Assembly: GCA_900498245.1 (NCBI GenBank)
Contig: LS998015.1
Coordinates: 526 to 47,142 of the forward strand
Length of the DNA stretch: 46,617 nt
Direction of reading: 5' to 3'
DNA from: Candidatus Zixiibacteriota bacterium
Lineage (GTDB): Bacteria > Zixibacteria > MSB-5A5 > GN15 > PGXB01
The translations under genes and the position numbers were made by a program. Below, one piece after another: positions 11,064-20,485 of this stretch (within the stretch, counting starts at the first letter, position 1; every line of letters begins with the position of its first letter). Below the pieces are notes generated by a model that was not told where the DNA came from, made no database searches, and saw only the letters and a list, made by a program, of their open reading frames with translations.

Positions 11064-11096
11064 ACATTTTTTCTTGACATTGACGAAAATAAATGT
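11064..11096 (+). promoter_or_regulatory. Possible regulator-binding inverted repeat over the Rrf2 promoter
   Basis: ACATTT (11064-11069) and AAATGT (11091-11096) are inverted copies that bracket the -35 box and spacer and just touch the -10 box. The position would suit autoregulation by the Rrf2 protein encoded next. The half-sites are short and AT-rich, so this is only a candidate. Confidence 0.25.
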
Positions 11097-11101
11097 ATAA
11101 T
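11074..11101 (+). promoter_or_regulatory. Consensus sigma-70-type promoter for the Rrf2 gene
   Basis: TTGACA (11074-11079), a 16-base spacer, and TATAAT (11096-11101): both hexamers are perfect. Transcription would start near 11108, about 29 bases before the ATG. It may also serve the NO-reductase genes downstream. Confidence 0.75.
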
Positions 11102-11136
11102 AGATGAGTAAATGGTCATATAATCGGATATAAGAA

Positions 11137-11553
11137 ATGATTTATTCGCCTACTGCCCAACATGCCCTGCGGGCCCTGATTTATCTGGCCCGCCAGACGG
11201 AACGAATACCGATCCGGGTTTCGCAAATCGCCCAGGCCGAAAATATCCCGCGGCAATTCTTGTCCAAGATTCTCCATAACCTGAAAAACAAAAGGCTGGT
11301 CATCGCCACCAAAGGCCCCGGTGGCGGATTTACTCTCGCCCGCCCGGCCAAAGAAATCTCCATTATGGATATTGTCGAAGCGGTCGATGGGACTCAGGAT
11401 TTCGATAGGAAATGTATCCTCGGCCTGCAGGAGTGCAATGATAAAGCGCCCTGCGCCCTGCACAACCATTGGAAATCACTCCGCGATCAGTTCTCCAAAT
11501 CGATCGGGGCTATGACGCTCGATGCGGCGGTAAGGTCCCTGAAAAGTAAGTAA
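11137..11553 (+). CDS. Rrf2-family transcriptional regulator (NsrR/IscR-like)
   Basis: A 138-residue DNA-binding protein. The N-terminal winged helix (~1-65) has the family signature YSPTAQHALRALIYLA and the wing KGPGGGFTLAR. Three Cys follow at 93, 100 and 106 (C-x6-C-x5-C), the arrangement that holds an Fe-S cluster in NsrR (NO sensor) and IscR. It is followed by the DUF6448, hemerythrin-like, norC and norB genes on the same strand, which makes an NsrR-like role in NO sensing the best inference. A consensus promoter lies upstream, and an IscR-like palindrome sits between this gene and the next (11593-11618). Binding of a cluster and response to NO cannot be shown from sequence alone. Confidence 0.9.
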   Translation: MIYSPTAQHALRALIYLARQTERIPIRVSQIAQAENIPRQFLSKILHNLKNKRLVIATKGPGGGFTLARPAKEISIMDIVEAVDGTQDFDRKCILGLQECNDKAPCALHNHWKSLRDQFSKSIGAMTLDAAVRSLKSK

Positions 11554-11592
11554 AAAGGAGTTACTCATGAAACCTGTCTTCTATGCTAACAA

Positions 11593-11618
11593 AATACCTG
11601 ATTATAGGGTCAGGTATT
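11593..11618 (+). promoter_or_regulatory. Perfect inverted repeat, candidate Rrf2 (IscR-like) operator
   Basis: AATACCTGA (11593-11601) and TCAGGTATT (11610-11618) are exact inverted copies separated by 8 bases. The arms fit the outer halves of the E. coli IscR type 1 motif (ATASYYGA...TCRRSTAT), although the centre is one base shorter and does not match. The site lies in the leader of the DUF6448-norB genes, 24 bp before the ATG and right after the gene for an Rrf2 regulator. As RNA it could also form a 9-bp hairpin. Confidence 0.55.
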
Positions 11619-11641
11619 CATATTATTTGAGGAGGTCATAT

Positions 11642-12274
11642 ATGTTATCCCGAATTAATCTTGTCAGGCTGGGGACCCTGATTCTTTTTTCACTTGCCTT
11701 TCTGGCCGCGACAGCGCCGCCGGTTCGAGCTCATTGTGATACCATGGACGGGCCCGTCATCAAGGACGCCCGGACTGCTTTGGAAAGCGGCGATATCACC
11801 CCCGTCCTGAAATGGGTCAAGGCAGATGCGGAAGGGGAAATTCAAACCGCCTTCGCCGAAGCCCGAAATGTCCGCGTTCTCAATGAAACCGCCCGCGTCA
11901 TGGCCGACCGCTATTTCTTTGAAACACTGGTCAGAATTCACCGGGAAGGTGAGGGTGCCCCTTACACCGGATTGAAGCCCGCCGGATCGGATCTTCCTTT
12001 GTCCGTAGTCGAAGCGGACCGCTCCCTGGAAACCGGTTCTGATTCAACCCTGCAGGCGCTTTTACGGCAGTCCCTTCTGACCGGTCTGCATAAACGCTAT
12101 CTTGAAGCCCTCGAAAAAAGCCGCCACGCCTCTGAATCGGTTGCCTCCGGCCGGGAATATGTAGAATCCTATGTACAATTTGTCCATTACGTGGAACGAC
12201 TTTACTTGGACGCCTCGAGCGATCCGGGACACGGCCGGGAAGCCGGGCCGGATCACGGTGGGCATGACCAATGA
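11642..12274 (+). CDS. DUF6448 family secreted protein
   Basis: About 210 residues. The ATG at 11642 has GAGGAGGT 6 bases upstream and gives a signal peptide (RLGTLILFSLAFLAATAPPVRA) cleaved just before HCDTMDGPV, the conserved start of the mature DUF6448 protein. A second ATG at 11567 with AAGGAG is possible but would extend the signal peptide by 25 residues across the palindrome. The mature chain is mostly helical and ends in a His/Asp/Gly-rich tail (GHGREAGPDHGGHD) that could bind metal. Its stop overlaps an ATG of the hemerythrin gene (ATGA at 12271). Family function is unknown; the position between an Rrf2 regulator and NO reductase suggests a periplasmic role in NO or metal handling. 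Confidence 0.8.
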   Translation: MLSRINLVRLGTLILFSLAFLAATAPPVRAHCDTMDGPVIKDARTALESGDITPVLKWVKADAEGEIQTAFAEARNVRVLNETARVMADRYFFETLVRIHREGEGAPYTGLKPAGSDLPLSVVEADRSLETGSDSTLQALLRQSLLTGLHKRYLEALEKSRHASESVASGREYVESYVQFVHYVERLYLDASSDPGHGREAGPDHGGHDQ

Positions 12275-12306
12275 TTGAATCAAAACCAGTCAAGATTGGA
12301 GCCAAT

Positions 12307-12888
12307 ATGAAAGCGATTGAAATGCTGAAAAATGAACACCGCCTGATAGAAAAGGTTTTGGCGGCTCTTGAGTATTATATCGGGGCAATCGATAAGGGAG
12401 AAGAGATTGATCGGCGTGACCTCGCGAAATTCACCGCCTTCATCCGCACTTTTGCCGATTCCTGTCACCACGGCAAAGAAGAAGGAATTCTCTTCGCCGA
12501 AATGATCGAACGCGGCTTCTCCCGGGAGCAGGGGCCGGTGGCGGTCATGCTTATGGAGCATAATGAGGGCCGGCGGCTCATAAGCCGGCTTAATGCTCTG
12601 GCGGACAAAAAAGAACCGTGGGCCGAAAATGATCGCCAGGAAATATCCCGCACCGCTACAGAGTATATCGATCTTCTGCGCCGTCATATCATGAAGGAGG
12701 ATAATATCCTCTACCCCGCCGCCGAGCAGAATATTCCGCCCGAAATCATGACCGCCATGTATGACCGCTTTGAGAGGTTTGAAGAAGAAGAAACCGGAGT
12801 CGGAGAGCACGAGAAATTTCATCGGATGGCCGAAGAACTGGTGCGCAGGTACTCGCCCGGCGCTTCCCCTGCTAATCATCATCATTGA
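12307..12888 (+). CDS. Hemerythrin-like (HHE) domain protein
   Basis: A four-helix di-iron protein of 193 residues. Metal-binding His/Glu appear in the expected order: NEHRLIEKVL (helix 1), CHHGKEEGILF (helix 2), LMEHNEGRRLI (helix 3) and RRHIMKEDNILYP (helix 4). Members of this family bind O2 or NO or take part in repair of iron proteins under nitrosative stress. The start MKAIEMLKNEHR at 12307 matches family starts and has TTGGAG upstream; an ATG at 12271 overlapping the DUF6448 stop is the alternative. It ends with a His-rich tail (NHHH). Encoded directly before norC and norB, so it is probably part of an NO-protection operon. Confidence 0.9.
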   Translation: MKAIEMLKNEHRLIEKVLAALEYYIGAIDKGEEIDRRDLAKFTAFIRTFADSCHHGKEEGILFAEMIERGFSREQGPVAVMLMEHNEGRRLISRLNALADKKEPWAENDRQEISRTATEYIDLLRRHIMKEDNILYPAAEQNIPPEIMTAMYDRFERFEEEETGVGEHEKFHRMAEELVRRYSPGASPANHHH

Positions 12889-12906
12889 TAGAATATGAGG
12901 TCTAAA

Positions 12907-13617
12907 ATGTCAACCAAAACCGCCAAATGGATCTTTTATGCCGGGACTCTTTCCTCGGCTCTCCTTTTTCTGATACTCACTTTCGACACCCATCGTCAGG
13001 TCGCCGCTCTAACGCACGCCGACCGGCTTTCCGATGAGGTTGTGGCCGGGAAACATGTCTTTCAGAAATATAATTGCAACGATTGCCATACCATTCTCGG
13101 CTTCGGAGGATACTACGCCCCTGATTTGACCCGGGTCTACAGCCGCCGGGGAGAGAAATATATTCGCGGCATTATCACTCAACCGGAACTGACTCTGGCC
13201 AATTCCTTCCGCAAAATGCCGCACCAGAACGTCTCCCCCGAGGAAATTGATAAATTGCTTGCCTTCTTCCAATGGGTCGACGGCATCGACAACAATAACT
13301 GGCCCCCGCAGGACGAAAAGAGTCGCCGTTCCTCCGAAACCGCGCGTCTTATGGGCGGGACCGATTTATCCCCTGGAGCCGCTTTATTCAAAAGCAACAA
13401 CTGTATCACCTGCCACAAAATCGGCGGTGTGGGAGGTGATGCCGGCCCGGCGCTCGATGCTATCGGCTCACGGCTGGACAGAACCGCCATTCGCAAACAG
13501 ATTACCGATCCCCAATCCCTCAGGGCCAATTCCGACATGCCGGCCTACCCGGATCTTTCTGCGGGCGACCTGAAGGCCTTGGTCGATTTTCTCGTCAAGC
13601 AGAAAGGAGATAACTAA
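12907..13617 (+). CDS. norC: Nitric oxide reductase cytochrome c subunit with an extra haem domain
   Basis: A 236-residue protein that passes electrons to NorB. One N-terminal membrane anchor (~8-26) is followed by the NorC-type haem c domain (CNDCH at 57-61, then ILGFGGYYAPDLTRVY as in NorC, with the probable Met ligand in FRKMPHQ). A second cytochrome c domain carries CITCH at 166-170 and a possible Met ligand in SDMPAYP. Standard NorC has about 150 residues and one haem, so this is a two-haem form. The ATG at 12907 with GAGG upstream is chosen over 12895. The stop TAA shares its last A with the ATG of norB, so the two are probably translationally coupled. Confidence 0.92.
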   Translation: MSTKTAKWIFYAGTLSSALLFLILTFDTHRQVAALTHADRLSDEVVAGKHVFQKYNCNDCHTILGFGGYYAPDLTRVYSRRGEKYIRGIITQPELTLANSFRKMPHQNVSPEEIDKLLAFFQWVDGIDNNNWPPQDEKSRRSSETARLMGGTDLSPGAALFKSNNCITCHKIGGVGGDAGPALDAIGSRLDRTAIRKQITDPQSLRANSDMPAYPDLSAGDLKALVDFLVKQKGDN

Positions 13618-14951
13618 TGACTCCCTATAAATCACAACGGGTCGCCTATCCTTATTTTGTCATCGCCTTGCTACTGTTCGGCCTTCAGGTAATCATGGGA
13701 CTCTGGCTGGCCATAAATTATGCCTTTACCCTTCCTCAGAGTCTGGTTGACATTTTCCCCTTTGCCACGGCCCGCGCCTTTCATACCAATCTGCTTGTCC
13801 TGTGGATGTTGCTTGGATTTATGGGCGGAACATATTTCATGGTTCCCGAAGAAAGCAAATCGGAATTGTTCAGCACCAAACTTGCCTATATCCAATTAAT
13901 TCTACTGGTCGGGACCGGTGTCGCCGCTTTGACCGGCTTCTTGTTCGGCTGGACCAAAGGGAGACCCCTGCTCGAGATTCCTTTCCCTCTCAATTTCCTG
14001 ATCGTCGTGGGAGCCTTGATCTTCCTCTTCAATGTCGGTATGACTCTGTATCGGGCCAAAAATTGGACCATGATCCAGGGGACCCTTCTCGGCGGCCTGG
14101 TCATGCTGGCTCTTCTGTATTTATTCGGCATCCCCTTTTATAAAAATCTGGCCATCGACTGGTACTACTGGTGGTGGGTCATTCATCTCTGGGTCGAAGG
14201 GGCCTGGGAACTGGTGACCGGGGCCATCATAGCCTGGATATTGATGCGGATAACCGGAGTCCCGCGGGCCACTGTCGAAAAATGGCTTTATGTCGAAATC
14301 GGCCTTTTCTTGTTTACCGGAATTGTCGGAACCGGACATCACTACTATTGGATCGGGGCCCCCCATTATTGGCTCTGGATTGGTGGTATTTTCAGCGCTC
14401 TCGAGCCACTGCCGATTATCCTCATGGTCTGGGATACTTTCCGCCATGTCAGGGAACGAAAAGAGAAAGTGACTCATCCGGTCGTTTGGACCCTGGCCAT
14501 CGGCTGCTCCGTCTATCATCTTATCGGAGCCGGCGTCTGGGGTTTTGTTCATACTCTCCCGCAAATAAATTATTATACCCACGGGAGTCAGGTCACCGTT
14601 TCCCACGGTCATATGGCCTTTTTCGGCGCCTACGCTCTTCTGAATCTGACTATTTTCTATTACGCTTTTCCGCGCCTTAAGGGGATCGATGGTTTCCAGC
14701 AGAATTTGGGTAAAATCGGCTTCTGGACGACCAGCATTGCTATGTTCGCCCTGGGACTGGCATTTGGTGTCGCCGGTGTTTTGCAATCTTATCTGGAGCG
14801 GGTTTTGGGCCTTGGCTTTATGACCGCCCAGGCACAGATGCAACTATGGTTCAAAATCGCGATCGGAAGCGGACTCGTCTTCCTGGCCGGAGTTATCATC
14901 ATCATTTATGACCTCTTAAGCATGAAGTCTACACCGAAGATCGCATCTTGA
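13617..14951 (+). CDS. norB: Nitric oxide reductase large subunit
   Basis: A 444-residue, ~12-helix member of the haem-copper oxidase superfamily, reducing NO to N2O at the membrane with electrons from the preceding NorC. Expected active-site residues are present: low-spin haem ligand His56 (AFHTNLL); FeB ligands His190 (HLWVEGAWE), His241 and His242 (TGHHYYWIG); the cNOR glutamates Glu194 and Glu198; Glu263 (SALEPLPI); and haem ligands His330 and His332 (VSHGHMAFFGAY). The length suits cNOR-type NorB, not the quinol form, which carries a long N-terminal extension. No norD/norQ-type genes lie nearby, although a MoxR ATPase is encoded about 5 kb away. A terminator follows. Confidence 0.96.
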   Translation: MTPYKSQRVAYPYFVIALLLFGLQVIMGLWLAINYAFTLPQSLVDIFPFATARAFHTNLLVLWMLLGFMGGTYFMVPEESKSELFSTKLAYIQLILLVGTGVAALTGFLFGWTKGRPLLEIPFPLNFLIVVGALIFLFNVGMTLYRAKNWTMIQGTLLGGLVMLALLYLFGIPFYKNLAIDWYYWWWVIHLWVEGAWELVTGAIIAWILMRITGVPRATVEKWLYVEIGLFLFTGIVGTGHHYYWIGAPHYWLWIGGIFSALEPLPIILMVWDTFRHVRERKEKVTHPVVWTLAIGCSVYHLIGAGVWGFVHTLPQINYYTHGSQVTVSHGHMAFFGAYALLNLTIFYYAFPRLKGIDGFQQNLGKIGFWTTSIAMFALGLAFGVAGVLQSYLERVLGLGFMTAQAQMQLWFKIAIGSGLVFLAGVIIIIYDLLSMKSTPKIAS

Positions 14952-14972: not shown

Positions 14973-15004
14973 AAAGGGCCGGCTTCGACCGGCCCTTTTA
15001 ATTT
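14973..15004. terminator. Bidirectional intrinsic terminator between norB and the DUF5686 gene
   Basis: AAAGGGCCGG (14973-14982), loop CTTCGA, CCGGCCCTTT (14989-14998), followed by TAATTT. A-runs and T-runs flank both sides, so it can stop norB transcripts (plus) and the convergent 15027-17402 transcripts (minus). Confidence 0.85.
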
Positions 15005-17792: not shown

Positions 17793-18689
17793 CTAGTACA
17801 ACTTCTCCCTTTTCGCCAGGAAGGCGTAAAGGGCGTAGTCGAAAGGCACCGACGTATCAATCAGATGATAATCGATCCGGCTCTGACGGCATTCCGACGC
17901 AATCTTTTCCGAGAACTCTTTCGACATCCGGGCAAAATGCTTTTTCATCTGCCACGGCAAAGTCGTGATCTCTTCCCCCGTTTCCATATCTTTGAAGATC
18001 GCCTCAGTCGGGAAAGCAAAATCCTTCTCCCGCGGATCGAGAATATGAAAAAGTATCACTTCATGCTTCTTGTGGCGAAAATGTTTCAGCCCCGAAATAA
18101 TTTTCTCCGGCTCGTCGAGCAGATCGGATAGAATGACAATTAATCCCCGGCGCGAAATCCGCTCCGCCATTTCATGCAGGGCAACGGCAATATCGGTTTT
18201 ATCACTCGGCGTTTGATTGGCGATCTCCTGCAAAAGGAGATGCAAATGCCCCGATTTGCTCCGCGGCGGGATATAGCGGCGGATCCGTTCGTCGAATGTC
18301 ACCAGCCCGACCGCATCCCTCTGCTTGAGCATCAAAAACGACAGCGCCGCCGAAAGCATCGCGGCATAATCGAGCTTCACCGTCCCGCCCGAGGAATACC
18401 CCATCGACGCCGAGCAGTCGAGCAGAAGATACCCTTTCAGGTTGGTTTCTTCTTCATACTGCTTGATATAATACCGATCCGATTTCGCGAACACCTTCCA
18501 GTCGATATCGCGGATATTGTCCCCCGGCATATACTGTCGGTGCTCGGCGAACTCCACCGAGAAACCGTGGTATGGCGATTTATGCAACCCGGCTATAAAC
18601 CCTTCGACCACCATCCGGGCGCGCAGTTCCATCCCCTTCAGTTTCCCGACAATTTCCGGGTCCAGATATTTGCGGTATGAAGTTTCCAT
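17793..18689 (-). CDS. DUF58 domain protein (vWA-like, MoxR-associated)
   Basis: A cytosolic protein of 298 residues. The family signature YMPGDNIRDIDWKVFAKSDRYYI (split here as GDNIRDIDW and KSDRYYIK) is followed by a von Willebrand A-like fold with an intact MIDAS motif DCSAS (DxSxS, ~93-97), so it should bind a divalent metal. Such proteins are nearly always paired with MoxR AAA+ ATPases, here encoded at 19484-20485, and are thought to help mature or insert cofactors into client complexes. The ATG at 18689 is used; a TTG at 18692 would add one residue. The ribosome site is weak. A perfect hairpin lies just upstream (18717-18737). No client is obvious. Confidence 0.88.
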   Translation of the reverse strand: METSYRKYLDPEIVGKLKGMELRARMVVEGFIAGLHKSPYHGFSVEFAEHRQYMPGDNIRDIDWKVFAKSDRYYIKQYEEETNLKGYLLLDCSASMGYSSGGTVKLDYAAMLSAALSFLMLKQRDAVGLVTFDERIRRYIPPRSKSGHLHLLLQEIANQTPSDKTDIAVALHEMAERISRRGLIVILSDLLDEPEKIISGLKHFRHKKHEVILFHILDPREKDFAFPTEAIFKDMETGEEITTLPWQMKKHFARMSKEFSEKIASECRQSRIDYHLIDTSVPFDYALYAFLAKREKLY

Positions 18690-18716
18690 CAAATCTATTC
18701 TACCAAATAATTACTT

Positions 18717-18737
18717 TGGCAGATGAAGCATCTGCCA
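18717..18737 (-). repeat. Perfect intercistronic hairpin TGGCAGATG/CATCTGCCA
   Basis: Nine-base arms (18717-18725 and 18729-18737) with a three-base loop, in the 142-bp gap between the membrane protein gene and the DUF58 gene. No T run follows on either strand, so an RNA-processing or protein-binding site is as likely as a terminator. Confidence 0.5.
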
Positions 18738-18831
18738 TTAACTCGATTCCCTCTAAATGTCATCCCGGTCTTTGACCTGGATCAAGAATGCGAATCTCAC
18801 TACTGATATTAAACCCTGGCGGATTAATTCT

Positions 18832-19434
18832 CTACGCCGTCCCCTTCTTCCTCAAATCGCTGAATATCTTTAATGACATATAAAACACCGATAGAAGTAT
18901 CAGCGGGCCGCCGATATAAATGAAGATCTTGGCATAGGGGCAAGTATCGGTTCCGGCCAGACCAATCGCATGAATCAATATCGCCGGCCCGAAAATCCAG
19001 TACACCAATTTCTTTCTTTTAATCGACGCCGTCGAGAAGAAAAATAAAACGCCGATCGCAAAGAACAGGGCCGTATGGCCGTTCAGATGCACATGCCCCA
19101 GTTTCAGATTATCAACAAACTTCTCCCAGGTCGTTTCGTCCGACGCCCCCGCGAATTTTCCCATATCTTCATTGGTGATCGGTTCCTCCTGCCCGGAATC
19201 GGCCCAGTTGGGGGCGGTCACCGCCTCCGAATCGGACTGAATCGCTTCCAAATCAGCCTGATAATCATACGCCGCCTGCGCCTGCATTTCATCTTCATCC
19301 CCGCCGAATAAACCCGATTCGATAATCGCCAGCCCGCCGGCCCAGAGCATCGCGACCAGCATCAGGGCCGTGAATATTCCGACAAACAGCTTCCCGTGCG
19401 CCGGGAGCATGGTCAGATTAAACTTCTCCCACAT
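18832..19434 (-). CDS. Uncharacterised membrane protein between MoxR and DUF58 genes
   Basis: I do not recognise this 200-residue protein. It has a transmembrane helix near 17-41, an acidic and Gln/Ala-rich soluble stretch (~45-108), and three further hydrophobic segments (~118-137, ~142-162, ~168-190), ending with a basic tail (LRKKGTA). A conserved-looking HVHLNGHTALFF at the start of the second helix carries three His that could bind haem or metal, and CPY follows between the last two helices. AGGAG precedes the ATG by 6 bases. It starts 49 bp after the moxR stop and is followed by the DUF58 gene, so the three are probably one operon. It may be the client or membrane anchor of the MoxR/DUF58 pair; that is inference. 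Confidence 0.75.
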   Translation of the reverse strand: MWEKFNLTMLPAHGKLFVGIFTALMLVAMLWAGGLAIIESGLFGGDEDEMQAQAAYDYQADLEAIQSDSEAVTAPNWADSGQEEPITNEDMGKFAGASDETTWEKFVDNLKLGHVHLNGHTALFFAIGVLFFFSTASIKRKKLVYWIFGPAILIHAIGLAGTDTCPYAKIFIYIGGPLILLSVFYMSLKIFSDLRKKGTA

Positions 19435-19483
19435 ATCCGTCTCCTATTAGTTCATTCCTTGAATTCAATTCATTCCGTACCGG

Positions 19484-20485
19484 CTATCCCTGCACCTTGA
19501 CAGTTTCAATCAATTTCTTCACGATCGCCGCTGTATCGACCCCGTCGGCCTCGGCGTTGAACGATGTCACGATCCGATGTCTCAAAACCGGCAGCGCGGC
19601 GAAACGGACATCCTCCGGACCCGGTGTCGGCCGTCCATCCAGTATCGCCCGAGTCTTGGCCGCCAGAATCATATACTGCGAGGCCCGCGGGCCGGCGCCC
19701 CACGACACCCAGTTCTTGATAAAATCGAGCGATTCTGCATTATTGGGGCGAGTGGCCCGGGATATATCGACCGCATATTTTATCAGATGATCCGACACGG
19801 GGACCCGCCGCACCAATTTCTGCAATTCCATTATCTGGGCGGCATTCAGTATTTTTCCGAGTGTGTGGGTCGCCGTTACAGTCGTGGTCCTGACAATCGT
19901 CTCCTCTTCTGCTCCCGACGGATAATCAACATAGATATTGAACATGAAACGGTCCAACTGGGCCTCCGGAAGCGGGTATGTCCCCTCCTGCTCGATAGGA
20001 TTTTGGGTGGCAAGGACAAAAAACGGCTCTTCCAGGCTATAGGTTTCCCCCGCCGCAGTCACTTCGTGCTCCTGCATTGCTTGAAGAAGGGCCGCCTGTG
20101 TTTTTGGCGGTGTTCTATTGATTTCATCTGCCAAAATGACATTCGCAAAGACTGGTCCCTTGACATAACGAAAACCGCGCCTGCCCGAAATCTTGTCCTC
20201 TTCGATTATTTCTGTCCCCGTAATATCCGATGGCATCAGGTCAGGAGTGAACTGAATGCGGTTGAATTTCAAGTCTAAGATATTGGCCAGAGTCGAGATA
20301 AGGAGGGTCTTGGCCAACCCGGGAACCCCGACAAGAAGACAGTGGCCGGAAGACAAAAGGGCTATCAGAAGCTGTTCTATTACCTGATCCTGACCGATTA
20401 TTACCTTGGATATCTCTCTCTTAATATTATCATGAGCCACCTTGAGCTGTTCTACCGCCTGAAGGTCGCCGCCTCTTTCCGTCAT
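19484..20485 (-). CDS. MoxR-family AAA+ ATPase
   Basis: A 333-residue chaperone-like ATPase. Walker A is GVPGLAKT (~52-59) and Walker B is VILADEINR (~115-123), followed by the MoxR-type sequence PPKTQAALLQAMQE, sensor ATQNPIEQEGTYPLPEAQLDRF, and the C-terminal helical lid ending with GPEDVRFAALPVLRHRI. MoxR proteins work with vWA proteins to remodel or load metal cofactors into partner complexes; the vWA partner here is the DUF58 protein encoded two genes downstream. The ATG at 20485 has GGAGG about 10 bases upstream. Candidate origin sequence lies immediately upstream. Confidence 0.94.
   Translation of the reverse strand: MTERGGDLQAVEQLKVAHDNIKREISKVIIGQDQVIEQLLIALLSSGHCLLVGVPGLAKTLLISTLANILDLKFNRIQFTPDLMPSDITGTEIIEEDKISGRRGFRYVKGPVFANVILADEINRTPPKTQAALLQAMQEHEVTAAGETYSLEEPFFVLATQNPIEQEGTYPLPEAQLDRFMFNIYVDYPSGAEEETIVRTTTVTATHTLGKILNAAQIMELQKLVRRVPVSDHLIKYAVDISRATRPNNAESLDFIKNWVSWGAGPRASQYMILAAKTRAILDGRPTPGPEDVRFAALPVLRHRIVTSFNAEADGVDTAAIVKKLIETVKVQG

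Follow-up and report, generated by a model that had tools for sequence, protein, structure and literature searches.

A secreted DUF6448 protein in a nitric oxide reductase operon of Zixiibacteriota and its association with nitrosative-stress genes

What is a secreted protein of a family with no described role doing in an operon for nitric oxide (NO) reduction? The question is raised by a 46,617-nucleotide stretch of contig LS998015.1 of Candidatus Zixiibacteriota bacterium (the window, meaning the whole stretch analysed), in which positions 11137 to 14951 of the plus strand carry, in this order, genes for an Rrf2 regulator, a DUF6448 protein, a hemerythrin-domain protein, a two-haem NorC and the NorB of a cytochrome c-dependent NO reductase (cNOR). 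A sequence-only reading had placed these five families on one strand, and profile searches recovered all of them (Pfam matches, with NorC as a NorC-like cytochrome c). It had further proposed DUF6448 as a partner of NO reduction. Our results show that DUF6448 is indeed linked to NO in terms of gene association and shared control. We regard it as somewhat probable that the locus is an NO-defence operon with its own switch, in which the exported DUF6448 acts as a metal- or NO-binding protein of the nitrosative-stress response. Gene content, NO-gene association, the operator pair, the export signature, the conserved residues and a confident structural model were computed; Fe-S-based NO sensing, metal binding and NO chemistry are what we infer. 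The features of the locus are as follows.

11074 to 11101, plus strand: sigma-70-type promoter of rrf2, TTGACA-16-TATAAT (TTGACA at 11074, TATAAT at 11096), 12 of 12 positions matching, a consensus match only
11099 to 11124, plus strand: putative operator 1, AATAGATGAGTAAATGGTCATATAAT, of the form AATA-N2-TGA-N8-TCA-N2-TATT with 1 mismatch, overlapping the -10 element
11137 to 11553, plus strand: rrf2 regulator gene, 138 amino acids, PF02082 E=1.3e-33
11593 to 11618, plus strand: putative operator 2, AATACCTGATTATAGGGTCAGGTATT, a perfect 9-bp inverted repeat between rrf2 and DUF6448
11642 to 12274, plus strand: DUF6448 gene, 210 amino acids with a predicted 30-residue signal peptide, PF20046 E=1.2e-55
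12307 to 12888, plus strand: gene for a hemerythrin-domain (HHE) protein, predicted cytoplasmic, PF01814 E=1.2e-24
12907 to 13617, plus strand: gene for NorC with an additional C-terminal cytochrome c domain, two CxxCH motifs
13617 to 14951, plus strand: norB, 444 amino acids, catalytic subunit of the cNOR
about 14975 to 15000, no strand assigned: probable terminator 3' of norB, a GC-rich hairpin followed by a T-rich stretch in the sequence, with a minus-strand reading flagged

The tight spacing described in the sequence-only reading is borne out in part. The TAATG junction at 13617 is there, with an AAGGAG ribosome site, and an ATGA overlap exists at 12271, where the hemerythrin open reading frame (ORF) can begin. 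The likely starts of the three middle genes differ from those of the longest ORFs. For DUF6448, 11642 is more likely than the 11567 of the longer ORF, because a strong ribosome site, GAGGAGGT, precedes it and the signal peptide follows directly; this leaves an 88-nucleotide gap after rrf2, with a palindromic operator inside. For the hemerythrin gene, 12307 is more likely than 12271, because TTGGAG precedes the ATG and the product then matches the MK(P/A)xEIL start of its relatives. For NorC, 12907 is more likely than the earliest start of the ORF at 12895.

Genes and control sites that accompany DUF6448

We assembled DUF6448 loci from 18 genomes that carry the family, found by Pfam search among 132 genomes of the window's phylum, from the best 80 of at least 537 relatives in a bacterial and archaeal genome collection, and from plasmid records. 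The immediate same-strand neighbours (n=133) included hemerythrin (24), single-cluster ferredoxin (8), the NorB cytochrome domain (7), COX1 (6) and RIC, recognized by ScdA_N (5), and the second neighbours (n=106) COX1 (8), the NorB cytochrome domain (5), prismane/Hcp (3) and Rrf2 (3). At six or more positions from DUF6448 in the same loci, hemerythrin fell to 2 of 135 genes (p=2e-6 against the adjacent position), and COX1, the NorB domain and Hcp were not among the top families. An NO-type gene lay within three genes of DUF6448 in 39 of 106 loci; the same holds for 10 of the 18 genomes from the window's phylum, which were selected with Pfam rather than by resemblance to the window.

The genome search suggested in the sequence-only reading found the association, with cassettes in several phyla. 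Rrf2-hemerythrin-DUF6448-NO reductase (NOR) cassettes occur in the window's phylum (L030, L034, L037, L041), in Phycisphaerae (L047) and in Omnitrophota (L068), and partial ones in L064 (Rrf2 and hemerythrin with DUF6448) and L089 (DUF6448, hemerythrin and NOR). On plasmid pPRO1 of Pelobacter propionicus, one run comprises nrfA-type, HPP, hcp, PAS, ric, flavorubredoxin, DUF6448 and ferredoxin genes. The proposed partnership with NO reduction stands insofar as the association with NO and nitrosative-stress genes reaches beyond the window and palindromic operators are shared with NOR; it is too narrow, as DUF6448 is missing from genomes with close relatives of this cNOR and, in L020, L049 and L056, accompanies Hcp, a flavodiiron protein and RIC where NOR is lacking. 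Among the 132 phylum genomes, NOR is present in 29 and DUF6448 in 18, and the two co-occur in 10 genomes against about 4 expected (p=8e-4), physically linked in 7 of these 10. The other 19 genomes with NOR lack DUF6448, and in three of them (G029, G117 and G100) the cNOR is 74-81% identical to that of the window; DUF6448 is therefore an accessory that NOR does not require as a subunit or for its maturation.

Control sites point the same way. Boxes of the FNR/HcpR/NnrR type (TTGAYNNNNRTCAA) precede the DUF6448 gene, or the transcription unit that contains it, in 14 of 106 loci, compared with 5 of 679 control units handled in the same manner (p=2e-9), and the stricter HcpR consensus of Rodionov et al. 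(2005, PMC1274295) matches 4 DUF6448 units and no control. The DUF6448 units contained no CRP-type or NsrR-type motif, including the NsrR operator ATGYAT-N5-ATRCAT, from which the operators of the window also differ in sequence. The NsrR, HcpR and NorR regulons described in that paper resemble the DUF6448 loci in combining a local regulator with NO reductase, Hcp and RIC or hemerythrin, and some DUF6448 units have an HcpR-type box in front of them; the paper also mentions that HcpR regulons contain genes resembling those for hemerythrin, ferredoxin and cytochromes. That text predates the family and, in the part available, does not name DUF6448; unlike the NsrR regulon, the window has an Rrf2 protein that is not NsrR and an operator that differs from the gammaproteobacterial NsrR motif.

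Several individual loci deserve mention. In two genomes of the window's phylum, DUF6448 and a full RIC (ScdA_N plus hemerythrin) share one uninterrupted frame (L042, 6170 to 7747, minus strand; L044, 6914 to 8248, plus strand), possibly a fusion plus an internal start; AAGGAG and an ATG occur at each junction, and we therefore rejected the shared frame as proof of interaction. On pSymA of Sinorhizobium meliloti (L025, about 619 kb), a FixK/NnrR-like box, TTGATCTGTATCAA, lies at -156 of DUF6448, and in the related pSmeSM11a locus (L022) DUF6448 adjoins a small hemerythrin-domain gene. The flavodiiron label of these two loci reflects a generic metallo-beta-lactamase-fold match and was not counted, and a literature search with estimated pSymA gene numbers found nothing relevant. 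In L090, from a record labelled Methanosarcina sp. UBA293 (an archaeon), hcp directly follows DUF6448. On enteric plasmids and Escherichia coli genomic islands (L024, L027, L145, L146), DUF6448 neighbours an AraC/HTH regulator, divergent in the last three, and no NO genes; 6 of 5426 E. coli genomes carry the family. In L088, L092, L098 and L118, it lies near an extracytoplasmic function (ECF) sigma factor and, on the opposite strand, a conserved 187-residue protein with no Pfam match.

A putative operator pair and its Rrf2 regulator

Operator 2 has no mismatch to the motif that the window shares with relatives, and none of 60 shuffles reached its inverted repeat. At zero or one mismatch, a search of the 3.5-Mb genome gives the 26-bp palindrome exactly twice, each time in this operon, and the relatives G077 and G078 have exactly two copies each, in the same two places. 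Because the palindrome is unique to the operon genome-wide and the pair recurs in two relatives, the two sites appear to be operators dedicated to it. A different dyad, AATCGCAT-N6-ATGCGATT, flanks rrf2 in two copies in other Rrf2-led cassettes (G021, G019, G053; degenerate in L068); it also occurs at the rrf2 promoter of a nor cassette without DUF6448 (G003) and was not found in the promoter region of the window at up to 4 mismatches. The most plausible interpretation of both dyads is that they are operators for the Rrf2 protein encoded alongside them.

The regulator has the three cysteines already remarked on, and a conserved histidine besides (C-x6-C-x5-C-x2-H-x2-W), a sequence pattern that resembles the Cys3-His Fe-S ligand set of IscR; the CxxHxxW segment recurs in related regulators. 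Its description as NsrR-type did not hold: the IscR model (79.8 bits, equivalog cut-off 207.55) outscores the NsrR model (46.8 bits, cut-off 182), neither cut-off is passed, and the best Protein Data Bank (PDB) matches are IscR structures. Unlike IscR, the protein has one additional residue between the first and second cysteines, and no isc genes lie alongside. It is probably an Fe-S protein, and the content of the operon suggests that it senses NO.

The hemerythrin-like protein is as previously described. It shares the hemerythrin-fold HHE domain and the NO context with the di-iron repair proteins RIC, YtfE and DnrN, and RIC itself flanks DUF6448 at other loci; unlike them, it consists of HHE without ScdA_N and scores far below the RIC/YtfE model cut-offs.

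The DUF6448 protein and its proposed role

The window protein matches the family profile over its whole length (1-147 of 147) at 187.9 bits, against a gathering cut-off of 27. The earlier description of a secreted protein with a His/Asp-rich tail agrees with a signal peptide, an AxA|HCD cleavage pattern and the tail SSDPGHGREAGPDHGGHDQ. In all DUF6448 sequences examined, a signal peptide ends in an AxA-type site, and His-Cys-Asp comes directly after it. Because of the position of this signal peptidase site, maturation should leave His1-Cys2-Asp3 at the N terminus, encoded from 11732 in the window. The motif had partly been used in sampling the sequences; it is also present in the Pfam-based phylum set and in 13 sequences with a deviation at position 6. 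His70, Arg71, Glu74 and Gly80 are invariant among the 94 sequences counted, 88 of which also have His152; a short C-terminal tail holds at least three histidines in 86 of 92.

An alignment-based AlphaFold2 model (predicted local distance difference test 91.9, predicted template modelling score 0.76) is all helical; it was used in place of a single-sequence model, which was discarded at 41.8 on the former measure. In the model, residue 4 forms an isolated bridge with about residue 82 (DSSP), which would place the N terminus beside the conserved T79-K82 loop. The two halves of the protein are related (hhalign E=4e-10), and simple register of the halves in a manual alignment sets His70 opposite His152. 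Sequence and fold searches of the PDB and of viral models returned no relatives, and our literature search found no paper mentioning DUF6448 or PF20046. Provided that cleavage occurs as predicted, the mature N-terminal histidine is shared with the His-brace metalloproteins, and the conservation pattern suggests a metal site that involves it.

We propose the following mechanism. The Rrf2 protein, probably carrying an Fe-S cluster, would occupy both palindromes, the one at the rrf2 promoter and the one ahead of DUF6448. It would leave these operators on exposure to NO or when the cluster is lost, so that DUF6448, hemerythrin, NorC and NorB are produced together. NorCB would then reduce NO to N2O at the membrane, and the cytoplasmic hemerythrin would deal with NO, iron or damaged iron centres. 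DUF6448 would be the component that is exported: an all-helical protein of two repeats with an invariant mature N-terminal His-Cys-Asp. Its metal site (Fe or Cu) may be formed by this motif with the invariant His70-Arg71 and Glu74, possibly joined by His152 and the His-rich tail, and outside the cytoplasm it may bind or scavenge NO, or the metal that NO releases. In a bolder version, DUF6448 would represent a new class of exported metalloproteins, whose two-repeat helical fold is unmatched and whose metal site is the N-terminal His-Cys-Asp; such proteins would bind or convert extracytoplasmic NO and be standard in the nitrosative-stress defence of bacteria and some archaea. This version seems to us rather doubtful.

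A number of points weigh against the proposed role in NO defence. In about 57% of the 106 loci, DUF6448 has no NO gene within a distance of three genes and no FNR-type box, and some loci have TetR/efflux, ECF sigma or AraC genes alongside. The FNR-type boxes may be a sign of anaerobiosis rather than of NO. Metal binding is read from conservation, and the conserved residues could be structural. The cross-phylum loci, as the best 80 matches, are biased toward sequences resembling the window protein, and the neighbourhood statistics treat related genomes as independent, on metagenome-assembled contigs that are fragmentary.

Some of these points would suit a general extracytoplasmic metal-stress protein that binds or buffers Fe or Cu and has been recruited to many stress regulons, those for NO among them on account of the iron that NO frees from Fe-S proteins. 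The majority of loci without an NO gene, the variety of adjoining regulators (Rrf2, Crp, TetR, ECF sigma, AraC), the mobile AraC-DUF6448 pairs of enteric plasmids and E. coli islands and the His-rich tail all speak for such a protein; we nevertheless consider it unlikely, although worth serious attention, as the enrichment centres on NO and nitrosative-stress genes and FNR/HcpR boxes and no metal transporters are among the top families adjacent to DUF6448. A role as a NOR-specific assembly factor, delivering for example the non-haem iron (FeB) in place of NorQ/NorD, could be suggested by the finding that NorQD is essential for FeB insertion in the Paracoccus cNOR (PMC9976466), together with the absence of the NorQ-type CbbQ_C domain from all 132 phylum genomes, where the same model does match S. 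meliloti pSymA as a positive control. Because several of these genomes have a cNOR, FeB insertion in the phylum must proceed by a different route or through another MoxR protein. That DUF6448 provides this route is improbable, given the closely related cNORs that lack it, its presence without any NOR in L020 and L049, and its more frequent company with the quinol-type enzyme (qNOR), which requires no chaperone (PMC9976466). Also improbable is an association that reflects only shared anaerobic regulation or cassette hitch-hiking, with no functional link to NO: FNR-type boxes do serve anaerobic control too and DUF6448 genes do move on plasmids, but adjacency specifically to hemerythrin, NOR, Hcp and RIC recurs in unrelated phyla, a dedicated putative operator lies directly before DUF6448, and DUF6448 and RIC twice share one open frame.

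The proposed role in NO defence gives a widespread secreted family, present in many phyla and on conjugative plasmids, enteric ones included, its first testable function. To our knowledge, extracytoplasmic NO handling is poorly covered by known proteins. The chemistry of the N-terminal His-Cys-Asp in an unmatched fold is open to direct testing, and the operator pair makes the Rrf2 protein testable by simple binding assays.

NorCB and its genomic context

The sequence-only reading was right about the cNOR subunits and their ligands. NorB (COX1, PF00115 E=1.3e-62) aligns end to end with the Pseudomonas aeruginosa cNOR (3o0r_B; 394 bits, E=8e-117), with its His/Glu motifs HLWVEGAWE, GHHYYW and SALEPL in register over this length. 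It is a separate 444-residue subunit with the FeB histidine ligands and the catalytic glutamate and with no quinol or cytochrome extension. NorC is two-haem, as had been stated: residues 9-141 match 3o0r_C (E=1e-22), a second cytochrome c domain is added at the C terminus, and CxxCH occurs at residues 61 and 170. By its sequence it is a variant of the standard one-haem, membrane-anchored NorC, and comparable two-CxxCH proteins adjoin NorB in L034, L080 and L084. The norCBQD operons of Paracoccus and Pseudomonas share the NorC-NorB pair with the window, which differs from them in the second cytochrome c domain and in having Rrf2, DUF6448 and hemerythrin in place of NorQD.

A second NOR is encoded at about position 376 kb of the same genome (L144, 5567 to 8011, minus strand), a single-chain qNOR of 814 amino acids without Rrf2, hemerythrin or DUF6448 neighbours. 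Neither Hcp nor cd1 nitrite reductase was found in this genome, and nitrous oxide reductase gave no match, a negative left unvalidated since no control matched either. Detoxification appears a more likely role than full denitrification.

The window also encodes, on the strand opposite to norB and about 3 kb away from it, a MoxR AAA+ ATPase together with a DUF58/VWA protein (17796 to 20485, minus strand), a pair of the same kind as NorQ/NorD; few or no such genes lie near DUF6448 in other loci. In a member of the window's family, contig C35 of G077 (64,113 bp; L031 and L058) carries a norB with an in-frame TGA and a norC with an in-frame TAA.

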